From a virus, in the IMG/VR virus record IMGVR_UViG_3300025853_000418, positions 1-30,506 of that record: 30,506 bases of DNA. One strand, written 5' to 3'. The notes below the pieces were generated by a model. It was not told the origin of the DNA, searched no databases, and saw only the letters and a program-made list of their open reading frames with translations. Both the position numbers and the translations under genes were made by a program. Numbering within the stretch: the stretch's first letter is position 1; the number at the start of each line of letters is the position of its first letter. Of the stretch, positions 814 through 27,720 are shown piece after piece.

Positions 814-3107
814 GCTTTCAGATAGAAGATTACTGCTCAAAGCTGAGTTGGTATCTGGTAACAATCCCTGCTGGCTCCAAAGGGCCAACGAGATTTGGTT
901 GGCAACAACCAGAGAAGGCATTGTCAGATCCAGATCAGGCCAGACTATATTATGAGCAGAACCCAAATCACAATGTAGGATTACTGCATGGTGCATCTGG
1001 AACTTGTGCTATCGACATAGATAATGTCGAGCATACAAAAATTATCTTTGAACATCTGGGAATAGATTTTTCTGAGTTGATGCAATCTGCACCACAGATT
1101 ATCGGACGTGAAAATCGTGGCAAGCTGATCTTTAAAGCTCCACCTGATTTAATCACGCACAAGATATCGTGGCCTGTCGAGGGAGATCCACGCAAGACCG
1201 AAGTGGTATTTGAATTGCGTGCAGGCTCTGTTCAGGATGTACTTCCGCCAAGTATCCATCCAGATACAGGTCGTCCATATGAATGGGCGGGGAGATCAAT
1301 CTTCGATGGCATCCCAGAACTACCACCACAAATTTTAACATTGTGGCGTGAGTGGGATAAGTTTCGTCCACAGCTTCAAGACATATGCCCTTGGAAAAAG
1401 AAGGCAGAGTTTCAGCCAACACGAAAGCCAAGACCTAAAAGTGATAGCACTTCAGTAATAGATGCATTCAATGATGCACATGACATGCACACTTTGATGG
1501 TTCAGTATGGATACAAGCCAACGTCCAAGGGTAGATACCTATCTCCCAACAGCACGTCAGGATTAGCTGGTGTTAAACTATTTGATGATGGCAGAGCTTA
1601 CAGCCACCACGCATCCGATCCATTTGATAATGCCCATACATTTGATGCATTTGAATTGTGGTTACAGTTCGAACACATGGGCAACGTCCAGAAAGCGGTC
1701 AAAGAAGCCGCTCAAATATTAAACGTAACGCAAGACGAAGAGTATGATTTAGACAAGGAAGCAATCGAGCATGGCGCAAGAGTCGCCAAGAATATTATGT
1801 CTACAAAATCAAAAGAAGTAGACACACCACTAGGTGAAATACCTGAACATTTACTAAGTGTGCCTGGTGTTCTTCAGGATGTTGTAAATTACTACACTGT
1901 ATCTGCAATTAAACCCCAACCTCAATTTGCTGTGCAATGTGCAATTGCATTTGGTTCAGTTGCAATGGGTCGTCGGTGGGTGACTGATCAGAGAAACTTC
2001 TCTAGCTTATACTTCTTAAATATTGGTGAGACAGGATCTGGTAAGGAACACACAAAAACTGTCATTGAGGAATTACTTGAACAGTCTGGGTTAGATGAAT
2101 TAATAGGGCCTGCTGGCTATACTTCGAGTGCAGGTGTTTTATCTACACTAACTAAAAAGCCAACGCATGTCTCTGTAATTGACGAACTTGGGCGACAATT
2201 AAAGGCGGCATCTGCAAAGGGTATGCAACATAAAGCTGACGCAATAACTGCAATCATGGAATGCTTTGGACGCCAAGATGGAACTTTAAGGCAACAAGGT
2301 TACGCAACCAACACAATGAAATCGGCAGACGCAGAGAAGTTGGAGAAGGTTGTGAAGCGTCCATCTCTCACATTAGTTGGAATGTCTACACCATCAGAGT
2401 TTATGCAAGCTATTGGTGGAGGTGATGTTGCATCTGGATTGCTCAATCGTTTTATAATTGTGAAGTCTGAAATTGGTGTGCAGATGTCCCAGAAGAAACG
2501 TAGGTCAACAATATCTGATCGACTGGCTACTTGGGCAAAGGATCATGCCAATGCAAATGAGGGTGATTTAGATACTGGCAACAGCCATGACATGCCACCA
2601 CATCCACTAGAAGTTGCATTTACTCAGGAAGCTGAAGATCTTCTGCGTGAGTACGAGCAGAGATTGGTTAATGCAATTAAGAAGGAGACAGGTACAGGTC
2701 TGGAGGCTATGTACAATCGTAGCCGTGAGATTGCCATGCGTTTGTCTTTGATTATCGCTCGGTCAATGGGTCAGGACGAAATAGGTTCAGATGCAATGCA
2801 GTGGTCTATTGATTATGTAGATCACTATGCAATCCAAACTATCGAGATGTTCAGGTCTAATATGTCAGAAGGACCATTTGAAGCGGCATGTAAGGCAGTC
2901 TACGCACGAATAGAAAAGGCTGGGTTAACTGGCTTAACTGAACGTGAGTTAGCCAGAAGTGTATCAGCTTTTGCAAATATGGATAGGCGCAGACGTGCTG
3001 ACATTCTCGATGCACTGCAAACTGACAGAGGTATTGAATGTAGAAATCAAAACGAAGGTGCAAAGGGTAGGCCAAGGTTTGCTTACTTCTCACCACCAAT
3101 AAATTAA
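810..3107 (+). CDS. Primase-polymerase / helicase fusion (replication protein)
   Basis: 765 aa. Residues about 10-185 match a bifunctional primase-polymerase (PrimPol) domain: the metal-binding DxD is AIDIDN (D69, D71), followed by a basic strand GRENRGKLIF and the late motif IHPDTGRPYEW (149-159). Residues about 225-305 form the linker segment seen in phage primase-helicases (SPNSTSG, then SHHASDP). Residues about 350-700 are a P-loop ATPase of the DUF3987/D5-like kind: Walker A is GETGSGKE (406-413), with Glu after the Lys instead of Ser/Thr, a variant I recall from related phage proteins; Walker B is VSVIDELG (454-461); a possible arginine finger is in LLNRFII (R547). The C-terminus (about 690-765) looks like a winged helix. 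It should prime and unwind at the phage origin. It is coupled (ATGA) to the upstream regulator. Confidence 0.88.
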   Translation: MSFQIEDYCSKLSWYLVTIPAGSKGPTRFGWQQPEKALSDPDQARLYYEQNPNHNVGLLHGASGTCAIDIDNVEHTKIIFEHLGIDFSELMQSAPQIIGRENRGKLIFKAPPDLITHKISWPVEGDPRKTEVVFELRAGSVQDVLPPSIHPDTGRPYEWAGRSIFDGIPELPPQILTLWREWDKFRPQLQDICPWKKKAEFQPTRKPRPKSDSTSVIDAFNDAHDMHTLMVQYGYKPTSKGRYLSPNSTSGLAGVKLFDDGRAYSHHASDPFDNAHTFDAFELWLQFEHMGNVQKAVKEAAQILNVTQDEEYDLDKEAIEHGARVAKNIMSTKSKEVDTPLGEIPEHLLSVPGVLQDVVNYYTVSAIKPQPQFAVQCAIAFGSVAMGRRWVTDQRNFSSLYFLNIGETGSGKEHTKTVIEELLEQSGLDELIGPAGYTSSAGVLSTLTKKPTHVSVIDELGRQLKAASAKGMQHKADAITAIMECFGRQDGTLRQQGYATNTMKSADAEKLEKVVKRPSLTLVGMSTPSEFMQAIGGGDVASGLLNRFIIVKSEIGVQMSQKKRRSTISDRLATWAKDHANANEGDLDTGNSHDMPPHPLEVAFTQEAEDLLREYEQRLVNAIKKETGTGLEAMYNRSREIAMRLSLIIARSMGQDEIGSDAMQWSIDYVDHYAIQTIEMFRSNMSEGPFEAACKAVYARIEKAGLTGLTERELARSVSAFANMDRRRRADILDALQTDRGIECRNQNEGAKGRPRFAYFSPPIN

Positions 3108-3120
3108 GAAAGGAGTTGAG

Positions 3121-3780
3121 ATGTCAAATTTAAAAGTTTTACCAATTAAATCTGTTGATACTTACAATTGGTTATTGAAAAAACATTACGCAAAAAGAAT
3201 ACCAAACATAACAAATGCATTTGGATTGTTTGATGAATCTGAACTAATTGGTGTTGTGACTTATGGTATCCCCCCATCCCCAGCTCTCTGTATGGGTGTT
3301 TGTGGCGAGGAACATGCAAGTAAAGTAGTAGAGCTAAATAGATTATGCCTACAAGATAATGATAAGAATCAATCTTCTTTTCTAATATCTCAATCTTTAA
3401 AGATGCTACCAAAACCAAAAATTGTAATTTCATATGCTGATATAAGTCAGGGTCACGTTGGATATGTTTATCAGGCAACTAATTTTTTATACACTGGCCT
3501 GAGTGCAAAGAGAACAGAGTGGAGGATTATAGGATCAAACCTACATTCCAAAACCATCACTGAGCAAAGCACAATCGAAGAAAGAAAAAGCAATCCAGAC
3601 AAATATGAATACATAGATAGGCCACGCAAACATAGGTATATTTATATTGTTGGAAGTAAGAAAGATCGAAAACTTTTAACTAAGTCTTTAAACTACGATC
3701 AGTTCCCTTACCCTAAAGGTGAAACAAAACAATATAACTCTGGAAGTAAAGTTATTACTCAAATGGTATTAGAATTATAA
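3121..3780 (+). CDS. mom: Mom-like DNA modification protein (GNAT-type adenine modification)
   Basis: 219 aa, start preceded by GAAAGGAG at 5 bases. It shows the sequence pattern of the phage Mu Mom family: a KKHYAKRIP-like N-terminus (about 20-28), a strand GVVTYGIPPSP (44-54), the signature ELNRL (71-75), and SYAD followed by GHVGYVYQATNF (104-122). Mom proteins are acetyltransferase-fold enzymes that convert adenine in phage DNA to a carbamoylmethyl derivative and so protect it from host restriction. That chemistry is known for Mu; here it is inferred from the family. The C-terminal 70 residues are very basic (RPRKHRYIYIVGSKKDRK), which fits DNA contact. No com-like gene lies directly upstream as in Mu; the gene follows the primase with 13 bases between. 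Confidence 0.75.
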   Translation: MSNLKVLPIKSVDTYNWLLKKHYAKRIPNITNAFGLFDESELIGVVTYGIPPSPALCMGVCGEEHASKVVELNRLCLQDNDKNQSSFLISQSLKMLPKPKIVISYADISQGHVGYVYQATNFLYTGLSAKRTEWRIIGSNLHSKTITEQSTIEERKSNPDKYEYIDRPRKHRYIYIVGSKKDRKLLTKSLNYDQFPYPKGETKQYNSGSKVITQMVLEL

Positions 3781-4643: not shown

Positions 4644-4949
4644 TCACAAAACCATCAGTCCTACAACTACAATTAAAAGTGTGGCAACTAACAGAAATCC
4701 AGAGAAGATTTCCTTTGTCAGTCCAACATTAAATAGTAGCTTTGGTTTCTTATCGTGGACTTCAATGTGACCACGCAAGTTAATTGATATCCACTTGCCA
4801 CTTTCGATGGGAACTTCACCTGACTGTGTGTATACCCACAAACTCTTGTGGCCTAACCTTTTGCCTGAGTTCATCTTAATCCAATCAGGGAAGTCATTGG
4901 TAAAGGTTATGTGGTTGAAACCTTTAAACTTCCATCTCTTAATAATCAT
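4644..4949 (-). CDS. Small membrane-anchored hypothetical protein, 101 aa
   Basis: I take the second Met (4949) as the start: AAAGGA is 6 bases before it, while it abuts the alternative start at 4955 directly. The first 75 residues are soluble and basic with strand-like segments (MIIKRWKFKGFNHITFTN, WISINLRGHIEVH). The last 21 residues (IFSGFLLVATLLIVVVGLMVL) form one clear transmembrane helix, so this is a tail-anchored protein facing the cytoplasm. I recognise no family. Last gene of the leftward early operon; small membrane proteins of this kind in phages often interfere with host envelope or superinfection, but nothing here proves that. Confidence 0.65.
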   Translation of the reverse strand: MIIKRWKFKGFNHITFTNDFPDWIKMNSGKRLGHKSLWVYTQSGEVPIESGKWISINLRGHIEVHDKKPKLLFNVGLTKEIFSGFLLVATLLIVVVGLMVL

Positions 4950-4961
4950 ACTCATTCCTTT

Positions 4962-5162
4962 CTAAGTTTCTTGAAATATTTCTTCTGCCAGATGTAACGG
5001 CAGTTCGATTGTGGTTACCCTATAGTCACACTTAGGGCAAACCTTTCGACGTTTTGTAGTTAAAAATCCAAAGGCAGAATGCGCCCTAGAATCCTTTGCC
5101 GCTAGTTTTATACTGCGACAGTGAGGGCAGTAACTAGACGACAATTTTTTTATTGGTTCCAT
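4962..5162 (-). CDS. NrdR-like zinc-ribbon protein, 66 aa
   Basis: Two Cys pairs, CPHC (12-15) and CPKC (42-45), frame a zinc ribbon. Between and after them are DSR (24-26) and RRKVCPKCDYRVTTIE (38-53), which line up closely with the N-terminal zinc ribbon of the bacterial repressor NrdR (DSR, then RRRREC..C..RFTTFE). The ATP-cone that follows in NrdR is absent: the protein stops soon after. NrdR represses ribonucleotide reductase genes by binding NrdR boxes; a ribbon-only phage version could compete for DNA or act on its own target, which is inference. Mu Com, a zinc-binding activator of mom translation, has similar size and Cys layout, so that is an alternative worth noting given the Mom-like gene at 3121. 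Confidence 0.65.
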   Translation of the reverse strand: MEPIKKLSSSYCPHCRSIKLAAKDSRAHSAFGFLTTKRRKVCPKCDYRVTTIELPLHLAEEIFQET

Positions 5163-5163
5163 T

Positions 5164-5499
5164 TTAAAATCCTAACCAACGCTTTAGTTTTGGAAACCAA
5201 TTGCTTGGCTTGATGTCTTCTTCCATTTCCTCAAGCGCATTTTTAAGAGATTGCATTTCACTTGCTTGCTTCTCTTTTTCTGTTTGAACTGTGTCAGGCT
5301 CACCAAATGCAACACCAACGGATGCAATCTCATCGATAACACTTGGCTTGCCATATGGTATGTCTTTAACAGCTATGCGGTTCATAACTGACGAGGGTGA
5401 ACGCTTTAACGCTTTGGCGATCTCCTTGGTAGATACCTTGGCTTCTCGCATTAATACAAGCTCTGCGTCCTCCGCTTGTGTCCAATATTTATAACCCAT
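5164..5499 (-). CDS. Myb/SANT-like DNA-binding protein, 111 aa
   Basis: Residues 5-45 have the pattern of a Myb-like helix-turn-helix: WTQAEDAELVLMREA, then TKEIAKALKRSPSSVMNRI, with the early Trp and acidic pair and the Arg-rich recognition helix. The rest is an acidic linker (about 60-95, coiled-coil-like, EKQASEMQSLKNALEEMEED) and a basic aromatic tail (NWFPKLKRWLGF). It probably binds DNA as an early regulator. RBS AAAAGGAGAA precedes the start, and the gene overlaps the upstream one by 11 bases. It is one of the candidates for the protein that binds the operators at 6585 and 24354, though nothing shows that directly. Confidence 0.65.
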   Translation of the reverse strand: MGYKYWTQAEDAELVLMREAKVSTKEIAKALKRSPSSVMNRIAVKDIPYGKPSVIDEIASVGVAFGEPDTVQTEKEKQASEMQSLKNALEEMEEDIKPSNWFPKLKRWLGF

Positions 5500-5689
5500 T
5501 TTTATTCTCCTTTTTAATTAGACTTTTCAAGCCTTGTTCAAAACCACGTTGAAAATCATTGTCTGCTGGATCTTGTGCAAACAACATCAATGAACTTTCT
5601 ACGCAGTAAATTTCTCCAGATGCGACTTCTTCTTTCGCGCATTTATACCCTTGTGAGTAATCAGAATTTAAAAATATTACGTTACCCAT
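5489..5689 (-). CDS. Hypothetical protein, 66 aa
   Basis: Starts on a TAATG overlap with the upstream gene (stop at 5691-5689, ATG 5689-5687) and overlaps the next gene by 11 bases, so it is embedded in the leftward operon. The sequence contains DYSQGYKCAKEEVASGE and FQRGFEQGLKSLIKKE; the G-Y/F repeat pattern suggests two short amphipathic helices. No family recognised and no cofactor motif. Confidence 0.6.
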   Translation of the reverse strand: MGNVIFLNSDYSQGYKCAKEEVASGEIYCVESSLMLFAQDPADNDFQRGFEQGLKSLIKKENKNGL

Positions 5690-6297
5690 TACGCCACCTC
5701 CTTAAAAGTTTCTTTGTTGATAGCAATTGCCTGTAAAATTGTTGGAACACGACGCCCTTTAGTTGTCACTGCAACAGCTTCATATTCGTCTGTTTCAATT
5801 GCGCCTTTTTGAATAAGGCTAGAGATAACACCCCTATATACTTTTGGGTCTAAATCATATTTTGTGAATATTGTTAAATTTTGTGGCCTACCATCAATAG
5901 TAAGCTCCCATGTATCAAGGTGAGGATACTCCCCATCATCTGATTGCCATTGACCATTATCATCCAAGTTTTTGTGATTGTTAGCTAAAATGTTAAGAAC
6001 ATTCATTTCAAGGTCTGTGAAATTAGATGACTTGTTAGACTTAACTTCATTGCCGTGAAAGATTTCAGTACAATAACCAACACTGTCTATCATTATGATG
6101 CAGTCAAAGTTTGGATAGTTTTCAATTTCATCGCGTGTGGCAAAGATGTGTTTGATATCCCAACCACCAACTGCATTAGTTTCTTCCATTTTGCCGTGAT
6201 ACATTACAGGCTCTGGGTTAGATGTATAAATTTCAAAAGGGCGGTATCCCTTGTCCCAAAGTGTATTGATTTCAGTTTGTGTAATATTAAGTGACAT
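5689..6297 (-). CDS. Hypothetical early protein, 202 aa
   Basis: Starts on a TAATG overlap with the gene at 6297-6563. The N-terminal half (1-90) is a mixed alpha/beta region with several aromatic residues (GYRPFEIYTSNPEPVMYH, GGWDIKHIFATRDE). A segment around 92-130 contains LEMNVLNILANNHKNLDDNG and DTWELTI. The C-terminal third (about 140-190; VYRGVISSLIQKGAIET and AVTTKGR) has the rhythm of a winged-helix domain. I recognise no family. A DNA-binding or regulatory role is possible but only from the fold-like pattern and operon context. Confidence 0.6.
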   Translation of the reverse strand: MSLNITQTEINTLWDKGYRPFEIYTSNPEPVMYHGKMEETNAVGGWDIKHIFATRDEIENYPNFDCIIMIDSVGYCTEIFHGNEVKSNKSSNFTDLEMNVLNILANNHKNLDDNGQWQSDDGEYPHLDTWELTIDGRPQNLTIFTKYDLDPKVYRGVISSLIQKGAIETDEYEAVAVTTKGRRVPTILQAIAINKETFKEVA

Positions 6298-6563
6298 TAT
6301 ACTTCCCCCTCAAGTGCTTCATCAATTTTATCTAGGTCTTCCATAGTTAAAACCTCAGTTCCTTCAGACAATTGAGCAATTTTATTTAAAAGATATTGAA
6401 TGTTACTATTAGCCATTTCAGCTTTCTTAGCTTCAACATTTATTTCTTTGTGAAGGTCAGATATTTTATCAGCCAAAGTTGGTGGATTATCTGCAATAGA
6501 TTGCATTCTTCTGCCATAAGCAGATCGTTGATCAAATTTTCCATTTTTAGTTTTGTTTAACAT
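6297..6563 (-). CDS. Hypothetical helical protein, 88 aa, first gene of leftward operon
   Basis: The ATG at 6563 follows AAAAGGAATACAAAA, with AAGGA at 8 bases. The protein is basic at the N-terminus (KTKNGKFDQRSAYGRRMQ) and then largely helical with coiled-coil character (LADKISDLHKEINVEAKKAEM, YLLNKIAQLSE), ending acidic. No family recognised. It is the promoter-proximal gene of the six-gene leftward unit behind the palindromic promoter at 6585-6619. Confidence 0.6.
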   Translation of the reverse strand: MLNKTKNGKFDQRSAYGRRMQSIADNPPTLADKISDLHKEINVEAKKAEMANSNIQYLLNKIAQLSEGTEVLTMEDLDKIDEALEGEV

Positions 6564-6584
6564 TTTTGTATTCCTTTTCTCTTT

Positions 6585-6619
6585 CTACATACATTATGTA
6601 GCATACTGTATATAGTATA
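6585..6619 (-). promoter_or_regulatory. Leftward early promoter with palindromic operators
   Basis: On the minus strand a -10 box TATACT (6619-6614) has only a weak TTTTTA 17 bases upstream as -35. Immediately downstream is a perfect palindrome CTACATA-N3-TATGTAG (6585-6601). The -10 region itself is part of a second symmetric stretch, ATACT-N6-AGTAT (6603-6618). The 17-bp palindrome has the same layout as the one at 24354-24370, so both promoters are probably bound by one regulator. Confidence 0.55.
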
Positions 6620-6643
6620 GCAATAGGAAAAGTGAATAAAAAT

Positions 6644-6672
6644 AAAAAAAGTTTAAGACATATCCATCTTAA
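6644..6672 (-). terminator. AT-rich terminator after the 6653-7009 gene
   Basis: On the minus strand TTAAGA (6672-6667), an 8-nt loop and TCTTAA (6658-6653) form a stem that covers the stop codon, followed within two bases by seven Ts and then TTTTT after one A. The stem has few GC pairs, so termination may be partial. Confidence 0.5.
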
Positions 6673-7009
6673 CTGGTAAGTACCAACCCTTACGGCGATC
6701 TCGCTCACCCTCGTTGAAGTTGCGCTCCCATCTGAGGACGTTCACAATATCACAGTTTTCAGAGGCTACCATACATGCAATCATCACAGCTACTGGATCT
6801 CCGCCACCAGCCCACAGTAGATAGTCATCTTCACTAAACGACTGAAGGATAACTCTCGCAATGTTTATAGCTCGGCTCGGATTAAATTGTGGTTTCTCGT
6901 CAGGCTCAAAGATAACCTGTAACTTACCATACTTCGTGGCGTCAGATAAATCTGGAGTCCATCCAAACTTATTTTCTCTGGGTCGTGTCACAACGTAAAC
7001 TGTACTCAT
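6653..7009 (-). CDS. Conserved hypothetical phage protein, 118 aa
   Basis: Start at 7009 with AGAAAGGA 6 bases upstream. Recognisable segments are VYVVTRPRENKFGWTPDLS (4-22), KPQFNPSRAINIARVIL (39-55), EDDYLLWAGGGDPVAVMIA (60-78) and LRWERNF with a basic tail ending in a Tyr-Leu-Pro-Val motif. I recall proteins with this YLLWAGGDP pattern from several marine and alphaproteobacterial podoviruses, where they lie next to the terminase module; the function is unknown. The gene has its own terminator and faces the repeat-rich region at 7010-7427, whose left repeat cluster starts about 20 bases upstream of it, so those repeats may control it. Confidence 0.7.
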   Translation of the reverse strand: MSTVYVVTRPRENKFGWTPDLSDATKYGKLQVIFEPDEKPQFNPSRAINIARVILQSFSEDDYLLWAGGGDPVAVMIACMVASENCDIVNVLRWERNFNEGERDRRKGWYLPVKMDMS

Positions 7010-7032
7010 ATCTGTTCCTTTCTCACGTTTTT

Positions 7033-7138
7033 ATTTATGGCAGTATTTATGGCAGTATTTATGGCATACTATTTTTTGGCTTTTTTATCAATAAAATAAG
7101 GGCGAAAGTGATTTATGGCATTTTTGGCATATATGGCA
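7033..7138 (+). repeat. Left cluster of ATTTATGGCA repeats
   Basis: Three tandem copies of ATTTATGGCA at 7033, 7045 and 7057 (12-bp period, the first two with GT following) and three more GGCA repeats at 7111, 7121 and 7130 (9-bp period, ATTTATGGCA, TTTTTGGCA, TATATGGCA). The whole 7010-7427 stretch contains no convincing gene; it holds this cluster, C/G tracts, an (AT)n run and an oppositely oriented cluster. Spacing close to one helical turn is typical of protein-binding iterons. Confidence 0.8.
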
Positions 7139-7142
7139 TGTA

Positions 7143-7210
7143 CCCCCTAATAGATCCCCCCTATTTTTTACCCCCCCATACCTATACCTGTGGGGGAGAA
7201 GGGGGGGGTA
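7143..7210. other. C/G homopolymer tracts and strong hairpin
   Basis: Three C runs (7143-7147, 7156-7161, 7171-7177) are followed by two G runs (7192-7196, 7201-7208). TACCCCCCC (7169-7177) pairs with GGGGGGGTA (7202-7210). Such long G/C tracts are unlike the AT-rich surroundings. The minus strand has three G runs, one fewer than a standard quadruplex needs. Immediately downstream is an AT-only stretch (7225-7258) that would melt easily. Confidence 0.7.
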
Positions 7211-7289
7211 TGACAGTATGACATAAATAATAATAATAATATATATATATATATAATAACTATATAAATAAGGAGTATAGAGTAGATGA

Positions 7290-7339
7290 ATTATGGCAGA
7301 TTTGGTATATGCCATAAATATGCCATAAATGACATAAAT
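7290..7339 (-). repeat. Right cluster of repeats, mostly inverted (TGCCATAAAT)
   Basis: One direct copy, ATTATGGCA (7290-7298), is followed by TGCCATAAAT at 7310 and 7321 and TGACATAAAT at 7330, the reverse complement of the left-cluster unit, at 9-11 bp steps. Two weaker ATGACA units lie at 7210 and 7218. The remaining 90 bases before the small-terminase gene hold a TATATT (7381-7386) that could be a -10 box, with no clear -35 box. Confidence 0.75.
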
Positions 7340-7427
7340 AGATTTTTGATCTGATACTTTTCTTTTTTTAAGAGTTAGGCTATATTTCGTTAAATACAGC
7401 TAACCACTGAAAAGAAAGGTCAACACT

Positions 7428-26029: not shown

Positions 26030-26713
26030 ATGGCACTATCAGGAACTGTAGCCTTTAAACCTAATGTAGAAGAAATAATTGCTGAAGCATTTGAGCGTTG
26101 TGGTCTTGATACCCAAACTCAAACTGGTGATAAGGCTGTGTCTGCAAGGCGCAGTCTTAACCTTCTTTTTTCTGAGTGGGCTAATAGAGGTATTAACTAT
26201 TGGTCTGTAGAGCAGAAAACTCTGACATTGGTGAATGGTCAAACTACGCCATACACATTGCCAGCAGGGACAATTGATATTATGGATGCGGTGATACGAG
26301 ACAGTTCTGGCACAGACACTTCTGACCAGATAATAAATCGTGTATCTATTGCGGATTACAATCAACTTCCAAACAAAACATCTAGCGGTAAGCCAAGTCA
26401 GTATATGTTGGATAGTCAAATAACTCCAAAGATTTATATTTGGCAAATACCTGACAGGACAACATATAGTATGGTCTATTGGGCTGTTAATCAGCTTGAT
26501 GACATTACAGCATCTAATCAAGATGCAGACATTCCATATCGTTGGAACGATTGCATATGTGCTGGGTTAGCAAGTAAATTAGCAATAAAATTTGCAAATG
26601 AAAAATTTACACTTCTAAATGAAATGTATGAACGCGCATTTAGCATTGCATCTTCAGCCGATAATGATGGTGTAAGTTTAAGGATTCGGCCTACTGCGCT
26701 GAACTTATCTTAA
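26030..26713 (+). CDS. Head-tail adaptor / tail accessory factor (P22 gp4-like)
   Basis: 227 aa, RBS GGAGG. Helical N-terminus with VEEIIAEAFERCGLDTQTQT (about 13-32) and ARRSLNLLFSEWANRGINYW (40-59), then strands LVNGQTTPYTLPAGTIDIMD and a C-terminal helical region (NDCICAGLASKLAIKFANEK). The ARRSLNLLxxEWANRGINxW signature is that of P22 gp4-type tail accessory factors, which bind the portal and close the neck after packaging. Position after the capsid genes agrees. Coupled by TAATG to the next gene. Confidence 0.8.
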   Translation: MALSGTVAFKPNVEEIIAEAFERCGLDTQTQTGDKAVSARRSLNLLFSEWANRGINYWSVEQKTLTLVNGQTTPYTLPAGTIDIMDAVIRDSSGTDTSDQIINRVSIADYNQLPNKTSSGKPSQYMLDSQITPKIYIWQIPDRTTYSMVYWAVNQLDDITASNQDADIPYRWNDCICAGLASKLAIKFANEKFTLLNEMYERAFSIASSADNDGVSLRIRPTALNLS

Positions 26714-27720
26714 TGGGGAAATACGCAAGAGGAAAAAAATCCTACGCGATAAGCGACATAAGTGGTCTTCGGGTTAAGTATACCAAACTGAAGACGACTT
26801 GGGATGGCTTGCGTGTTTCACCTGAAGATTATGAGCCAAAACATCCACAACTTACTCCTGCTAAAAATGTTGTGGACGCAACTGCTTTATTTAATGGTAG
26901 GCCAGATAACGATCCAGACAATGTTGTTGTCTATATTGGATTTACACAAGATTGGACAATAGATCCAAGGGCAAGGCCACCTGTTGGAGTTCCGTCTATA
27001 GGCGAAGCTGGTTATGTTGATATACATAATGATCGTATATTTAGCATATCTGGCGTATCTGGAGCGGCTAATGTTGGAACGGCAATTGTATCTGACAATG
27101 AAGATTTAGCTGTTAGTGGTACGGCTGGTACAGGTGCGGTAGGTTCTGAAGTTCCTGAACTAGAAATAAATGAGACAGGCGTATCAGGTACAGGTGCAGT
27201 GGGAACTGAAGTTCCTGAATTAGAAATAAACGAAAGTGGAGTTGGCGGTACAGGTGCTACAGGTACATCTTCATTCTTTATCACAACAGATGCTCCAGTG
27301 TCTGGAACTGGTGGATCAGGTGCAGTAGGAACTGAAGTTCCTGAGATAGAACTAGCTGAGACAGGCGTTGGTGGTACAGGCGCAGTAGGTAATGAAACCT
27401 TTGAAACAGAAATAAATGAAGCTGGGGTTGGTGGTACAGGCGCAATCGGCAGTGAAGTTCCTGAATTAGAGTTAAGTCAATCAGGTGTATCTGGAGATGG
27501 TGAGTCAGAAGGCTTTGGAGTTTCTGGCAATGGTAACATTCAATTGCTTGTTACAGGTATTTCAGGTATAGGTTCAACAGGTGCTGTTGGTGAAGAAGTC
27601 TCTGCTTCTGAAGCTATTGAGACAGGACTTGGCGGATCAGGTGCAGTAGGTTCAGTTAGTCTTGAAATTAGTCTAGGTTGGAGTGAAGGTGCTTGGGGAA
27701 GTGGTACATGGGGTAACTAA
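26713..27720 (+). CDS. Repeat-containing virion protein, 335 aa
   Basis: TAATG coupled. Residues 1-65 are a conserved N-terminal domain (ISDISGLRVKYTKLKTTWDG, then EPKHPQLTP and RPDND), seen in marine podoviruses next to gp4-like genes. From about 114 to 325 it is built of about nine units of 19-24 residues with the pattern VxGTGAVGxEVPELEINExG, and it ends GAWGSGTWGN. Such Gly/Thr repeats fold as elongated beta structures in fibres or surface attachments. No enzymatic residues. The repeat number may vary between relatives. Confidence 0.7.
   Translation: MGKYARGKKSYAISDISGLRVKYTKLKTTWDGLRVSPEDYEPKHPQLTPAKNVVDATALFNGRPDNDPDNVVVYIGFTQDWTIDPRARPPVGVPSIGEAGYVDIHNDRIFSISGVSGAANVGTAIVSDNEDLAVSGTAGTGAVGSEVPELEINETGVSGTGAVGTEVPELEINESGVGGTGATGTSSFFITTDAPVSGTGGSGAVGTEVPEIELAETGVGGTGAVGNETFETEINEAGVGGTGAIGSEVPELELSQSGVSGDGESEGFGVSGNGNIQLLVTGISGIGSTGAVGEEVSASEAIETGLGGSGAVGSVSLEISLGWSEGAWGSGTWGN
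27112..27690 (+). repeat. In-frame tandem repeats of about 60 bp
   Basis: Degenerate 57-72 bp units, each coding for the GTGAVGxEVPELEI pattern, run through the second half of the 335-aa protein. The stretch GGTACAGGTGC and the GAAGTTCCTGA box recur in most units, so slippage or recombination could change their number. Confidence 0.75.

Follow-up and report, generated by a model that had tools for sequence, protein, structure and literature searches.

A conserved iteron element as the predicted replication origin of CRP-901-type phages, with their PrimPol-DUF3987 protein as its candidate reader

Introduction

The O protein of phage lambda is a phage initiator that fills iterons beside an AT-rich stretch. 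It is neither a primase nor a helicase, and its gene contains the lambda origin. In PICIs, the origin follows pri-rep and has an AT-rich region between two sets of iterons (PMC6092414), and the SaPI and SCC initiators read iterons behind their own gene with a C-terminal domain (PMC7581432). Proteins like ORF904 of the archaeal plasmid pRN1 were suggested to recognise stem-loops (PMC4234260). For fusions of Prim-Pol, ATPase and winged helix, some of them with DUF3987, origin recognition through the winged helix was predicted (PMC5862659). Replicon modules of the PLE satellites were exchanged at least twice (PMC8263062).

The Roseobacter phages CRP-901 and CRP-902 were assigned to a new genus, described as abundant and as carrying a Prim-Pol gene, and CRP-901-type phages were reported to be widespread and abundant in the oceans (PMC10149686). 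A term search of the same paper found no replication origin described for the genus, and the literature searched gives none for CRP-901-type phages. Here, we describe a repeat element in a related virus and compare it with its counterparts in other phage contigs.

Results

The phage and its relatives

The window, i.e. the whole stretch of DNA that was analysed, is a 30.5-kb virus record with genes for PrimPol, a Mom-like protein, DUF6378, TerS, TerL and portal. Its nearest cultured relatives are CRP-901 and CRP-902, with 87% identity in TerL and 80-81% in PrimPol. Searched as DNA against the phage collection, the repeat region gave no match, because the repeat units differ in CRP-901 and CRP-902. 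In bacterial genomes, a related PrimPol was found on two MAG contigs only. Contig JAALKB010000131.1 (L337), filed under a Gammaproteobacteria MAG, encodes a PrimPol whose best segment is 99% identical; it probably represents phage DNA that was binned with the MAG.

Behind PrimPol, the window carries a Mom-like DNA modification gene (3121-3780), at the site of which some relatives have a DNA methyltransferase or no such gene. The predicted protein of 26713-27720 contains many repeats of the kind GVGGTGAVGxEVPELEINE, and is perhaps a repetitive virion protein.

Layout of the iteron element

In total, 11 units matching ATTTATGGCA with at most one mismatch were found within 7010-7427, spanning 7033-7339 (Table 1). 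The same count in 2000 dinucleotide-preserving shuffles had a mean of 0.16 and a maximum of 2, and the top count for any 10-mer over 60 shuffles was 5. In the rest of the window, matches to ATTTATGGCA were scattered and always had one mismatch. Only 7030-7340 is conserved; the remainder of 7010-7427 is flank that varies among relatives. The 12-bp step of the outer-left iterons is retained across lineages.

Table 1. Positions of the iteron element and of its candidate reader in the window.
Feature	Position	Strand	Remarks
PrimPol initiator: Prim-Pol domain, DUF3987 helicase-like ATPase, C-terminal winged helix	810..3107	+	PF09250, PF13148; model
C-terminal winged-helix domain (residues 689-765), predicted iteron reader	2874..3104	+	covariation, model
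Codons of R712 and E713, class-tracking residues	2943..2948	+	column comparison
Whole element, predicted replication origin	7030..7340	+ (relative to PrimPol and terS)	conserved unit, 86 distinct PrimPol contigs
Outer-left iterons, three ATTTATGGCA units at 7033, 7045 and 7057	7033..7066	+	12-bp steps
Inner-left iterons at 7111, 7120 and 7129	7111..7138	+	9-bp steps
C-tracts then G-tracts, hairpin-capable	7143..7208	.	in most lineages despite sequence variation; weak
AT-rich stretch (88-97% AT), predicted melting region	about 7210..7269	.	in all lineages read
Lone iteron in the central part	7219..7228	-	at most one mismatch to ATTTATGGCA
Iteron facing the right-hand cluster	7289..7298	+	at most one mismatch to ATTTATGGCA
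Right-hand iterons at 7310, 7321 and 7330	7310..7339	-	steps of 11 and 9 bp

The first-pass annotation had counted at least ten units spaced 9-12 bp, in agreement with the 11 units and the steps of 9, 11 and 12 bp within clusters. It had also described two clusters facing each other across C/G tracts and an AT stretch. These parts are present as described, but the symmetry is imperfect, with one unit (at 7219) sitting in the supposed spacer. Long-range pairing of the left with the right repeats into a stem was dropped as an explanation, because the spacings differ (12 and 12 bp versus 11 and 9 bp) and the arms are thereby unable to pair in register. A hairpin of the C/G tracts is predicted in most lineages. 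This evidence is weak and only suggestive, because homopolymer runs fold easily and the shuffles used for comparison were mononucleotide. A search of the region against known RNA families gave no match near the gathering score. GC skew, earlier proposed as a means of locating the origin, tracks gene direction and does not locate it.

Distribution, orientation and position

Using a profile of the element, we found it in 40/40 distinct CRP-901-type contigs that hold both the PrimPol 3' end and TerL. Overall, the element occurred in 86 distinct PrimPol contigs, in the orientation of PrimPol in all 86, and it was absent from none of the contigs with at least 6 kb downstream of PrimPol. It is single-copy: second matches that we inspected were its own symmetry on the opposite strand.

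The distance between the PrimPol stop codon and the element ranged from a few-base overlap to 5.1 kb. In several lineages the element lies directly behind PrimPol, starting at most 12 bp away in 14 of the 86 contigs, whereas it is 3.9 kb from the PrimPol gene in the window. In most relatives it is not adjacent to terS. In L122-L128, it lies upstream of a gene related to 6653-7009, and all genes are co-directional. The window lineage has seven minus-strand genes (4644-7009) that are inverted with respect to CRP-901 and most relatives, in which the homologues run toward terS; the element of the window therefore lies between divergent genes.

An unbiased repeat scan and reading of the sequences revealed the same architecture in CRP-901 and others, with TTGCA replacing TGGCA.

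One 6-kb contig, listed as both L020 and L091, contains two different terS genes in opposite orientation (59-529 on the minus strand and 2353-2814 on the plus strand), with the element beside one of them. This contig is either a chimeric assembly or a rearrangement intermediate.

Repeat classes and concerted change of the units

We classed the elements by the base at core position 7 of the unit, by counting the motifs TGGCA, TGACA, TGTCA and CGTCA for class G and TTGCA and CTGCA for class T. This left 0 elements ambiguous. The units of one element change together, such that core position 7 is G or T throughout. A second concerted change appeared when we compared contigs with near-identical TerS, which carry the same block. 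In L010-L015, the outer units change from ATTTATGGCA to CTTATTGGCA or TGACAATAAG (A to B type) while the architecture remains unchanged; one outer-left unit is degenerate. Since the change is coordinated on both strands and among copies up to 300 bp apart, it points to one sequence-specific reader.

Covariation of PrimPol with repeat class

All 765 columns of PrimPol were scored against repeat class. Among the 65 distinct full-length PrimPols, column 712 was arginine in 26/26 sequences of class G and serine in 39/39 of class T, and column 713 was E or D in class G versus Q in class T. No other column separated the classes, the next best reaching 0.94. With fragments included, 153 of the 153 loci scored agreed at column 712, while column 713 had exceptions (one E in class T, two A in class G); some contigs are represented more than once among these loci, and the weight therefore rests on the distinct counts.

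In the best tree of PrimPol residues 1-690, repeat class changed five times and residue 712 also five times (bootstrap 4-5). At least two of the class switches are forced by well-supported branches, and both pairs on these branches show a concordant change of residue 712 and repeat class. A sign test cannot reach significance with at most five pairs, and the strength of the association therefore rests on the uniqueness of the column.

We looked for a separating column in the other proteins that cover independent lineages, and found none in TerS (best column 0.92), g7 (0.91), g1 (0.89), gp15 (0.89), g5 (0.88) or gp14 (0.83). One column of g2 separated the classes, but it is untranslated in part of the lineages, with stop codons in it, and lies ahead of the likely true start. 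The separating columns in g8, gp17, gp20, gp21, portal and p92 cover too few independent lineages to be judged.

In their primase and helicase sequences, L254 and L263 belong with L252-L257, yet their winged helix (TESQ) and TTGCA element are of the L307 type. This mix indicates that reading domain and element were transferred jointly, as would be expected of an adjacent cognate pair, in a putative exchange of winged helix and origin as a cassette. Along with the A/B change, which affects the other half of the repeat, PrimPol differs at 29 aligned positions, of which five fall in the winged helix. In this comparison, G750S in the wing was found in no other sequence. As the A/B change is one event, its link to these PrimPol differences is only suggestive.

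Model of the winged helix

The winged helix was modelled with fair confidence (residues 689-760, pLDDT mostly 76-86), whereas the helicase core failed to model. Three helices were obtained (689-707, 711-722 and 726-740), and helix 2 has residue 712 in its first turn. Base reading by winged helices usually involves helix 3, and G is commonly read by an arginine that faces it. In the model, residue 712 may touch the base at core position 7; this contact is possibly indirect, because the residue is at the start of helix 2 rather than in helix 3. A sequence search of the PDB with PrimPol returned chance matches only, while the winged helix had no sequence match among solved structures and no match in Pfam. 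Foldseek with the winged helix returned generic winged helices only.

Remote relatives

Two phages with a related C-terminal domain have long gaps beside PrimPol. In Pseudoalteromonas phage C7 (L335, 131-638), the gap of 508 bp before PrimPol contains TGTGCAAAAAGT-like, iteron-like repeats on both strands. In Loktanella phage pCB2051-A (L333, 3742-4252), the gap of 511 bp behind PrimPol contains two long inverted repeats (41 nt at 93% and 56 nt at 79%), which resemble a stem-loop origin of the pRN1 type. Both gaps fit candidate origins next to PrimPol, of two designs.

Discussion

With high probability, the element at 7030-7340 serves as an iteron-type replication origin whose reader is the PrimPol-DUF3987 initiator encoded by the phage itself. 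This reading draws on comparison, i.e. on the universality, single copy and fixed orientation of the element, the concerted change of its units, and the covariation with residue 712. The first-pass annotation had considered an iteron origin with an easily melted AT region, filled by one protein, and this suggestion is now well supported. It had also named PrimPol among the possible binders. With a residue that tracks repeat class, PrimPol is the best candidate reader.

We infer physical binding, ring assembly, melting, priming site and origin activity along the following lines. Copies of the PrimPol-DUF3987 protein would bind the iterons via their C-terminal winged helix, with residue 712 (together with 713) setting the base accepted at core position 7. 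Around the AT-rich stretch at 7210-7269, the bound proteins would form helicase rings, and they would open this stretch. The primase-polymerase domain would then start synthesis, perhaps on the strand that the C/G hairpin leaves exposed.

Two of the readings proposed earlier assign the element to neighbouring genes. According to the first-pass annotation, it might be a pac/cos site bound by the small terminase; packaging would then start beside it. The element of the window is indeed directly upstream of terS, its orientation is fixed relative to the genome, and repeated binding sites for TerS can be part of a packaging site, lambda cosB being an example. In other lineages, however, the element is 2-4 kb or more from terS, adjoining PrimPol or before g13. 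Moreover, TerS does not follow the units: a TerS 97% identical to that of the window pairs with B-type units and one only 80% identical with A-type units, the TerS of L122 is only 37% identical and yet its outer-left units are of the same type, and the best TerS column falls short of separating the classes. TerS was therefore rejected as the reader of the repeats, and a packaging site is highly improbable. An operator, filled by a phage repressor or activator that switches the divergent 6653-7009 and terS, is quite improbable as well. It drew on the divergent arrangement in the window, which reflects the inverted gene block of the window lineage; in CRP-901, L122-L126 and most others, the element lies between co-directional genes. 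The neighbouring genes change while the element stays, and the covarying residue belongs to a replication protein. The HTH protein of 5164-5499 was rejected as the reader, being undetected in lineages with another arrangement. Replication initiators often repress nearby promoters, so that a side role is plausible, and regulation by the element would be at most such a side role.

Other readings concern the element itself. Its sharp, repeat-bounded ends and several gene contexts could suggest a small MITE-like mobile element bounded by inverted terminal repeats, but the element is universal, single-copy and found in one orientation only, and relatives that looked 'empty' have it too, with units of the other class. 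These observations rule a mobile element out for practical purposes. Alternatively, PrimPol might bind the element for copy control, partition or transport, while replication starts elsewhere. Covariation by itself shows recognition and not the step that is served, and in satellite P4, iterons occur at crr as well as at ori. Against this, the element is the sole iteron cluster common to the genomes scanned and contains an AT-rich stretch, which makes a start elsewhere very improbable.

A bolder version of the origin reading is that an origin 'password' was switched repeatedly within one genus, yielding incompatible replicons, and that the origin is a hybrid of iterons and hairpin primed on the C/G strand. 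We advance this combination only tentatively and regard it as somewhat doubtful. If true, one core base in about ten repeats switches together with one or two initiator residues (R712 going with G and S712 with T), and phages that share hosts would have mutually incompatible replicons, possibly driven by satellites or origin-directed nucleases, as in PLE.

Covariation of initiator and origin is already known from the PLE satellites (PMC8263062). New in our comparison are the predicted origin of the CRP-901 genus, the resolution of the putative switch to a single base with one or two residues, and its apparent recurrence. The comparison makes co-change of specificity in initiator and origin precisely and cheaply testable, at the level of one base and one or two residues. 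It also suggests that Prim-Pol/DUF3987/winged-helix proteins, which have received little study although they are common in phages and plasmids, act as initiators that bind origins.

Comparison with known replicons

The element shares with the lambda O system the iterons beside an AT-rich stretch, but the lambda origin lies within the initiator gene. A further counterpart is the pri-rep-ori module of PICI and SaPI (PMC6092414, PMC7581432). Both have an initiator with primase and helicase (sometimes fused in PICI and SaPI), two iteron sets flanking an AT-rich region, allelic variants, and a C-terminal DNA-binding domain, here the predicted iteron reader. The origin is directly behind the gene in PICI and SaPI, and here in several lineages only. 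As in PICI, SaPI and P4-type replicons, initiator domain and iterons covary, in our case residue 712 with core base 7. Unlike these satellite islands, which are integrated and rely on a helper phage to be packaged, the contig has its own TerL, portal and other late genes; moreover, the helicase belongs to family DUF3987, the origin can lie kilobases from the gene, and a C/G hairpin tract is kept.

The alpha protein of satellite phage P4 (cited in PMC4234260 and PMC6092414) is a primase-helicase whose C-terminal winged helix binds the origin at short repeats, to which our protein, with binding predicted, is similar. The P4 primase is of the Toprim (DnaG-like) type, whereas the one here is an archaeo-eukaryotic Prim-Pol (PF09250). 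ORF904 of pRN1 likewise combines Prim-Pol, helicase and C-terminal winged helix in one protein, and its origin behind the gene has a stem-loop without conserved sequence (PMC4234260), which the C/G hairpin here calls to mind. The pRN1 origin has a long stem-loop and lacks iterons (PMC4234260), whereas here iterons dominate and the hairpin is short. The comparison thus argues that some Prim-Pol/helicase/winged-helix proteins may read iterons.

As in the RepA/ori system of the PLE satellites, the DNA-binding domain of the initiator covaries with an iteron origin (PMC8263062). PLE differs in having a RepA_N initiator and semi-palindromic iterons of about 30 bp, and in being a satellite (PMC8263062). 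Here, unlike in PLE, the predicted switch comes down to a single core base together with one or two residues.
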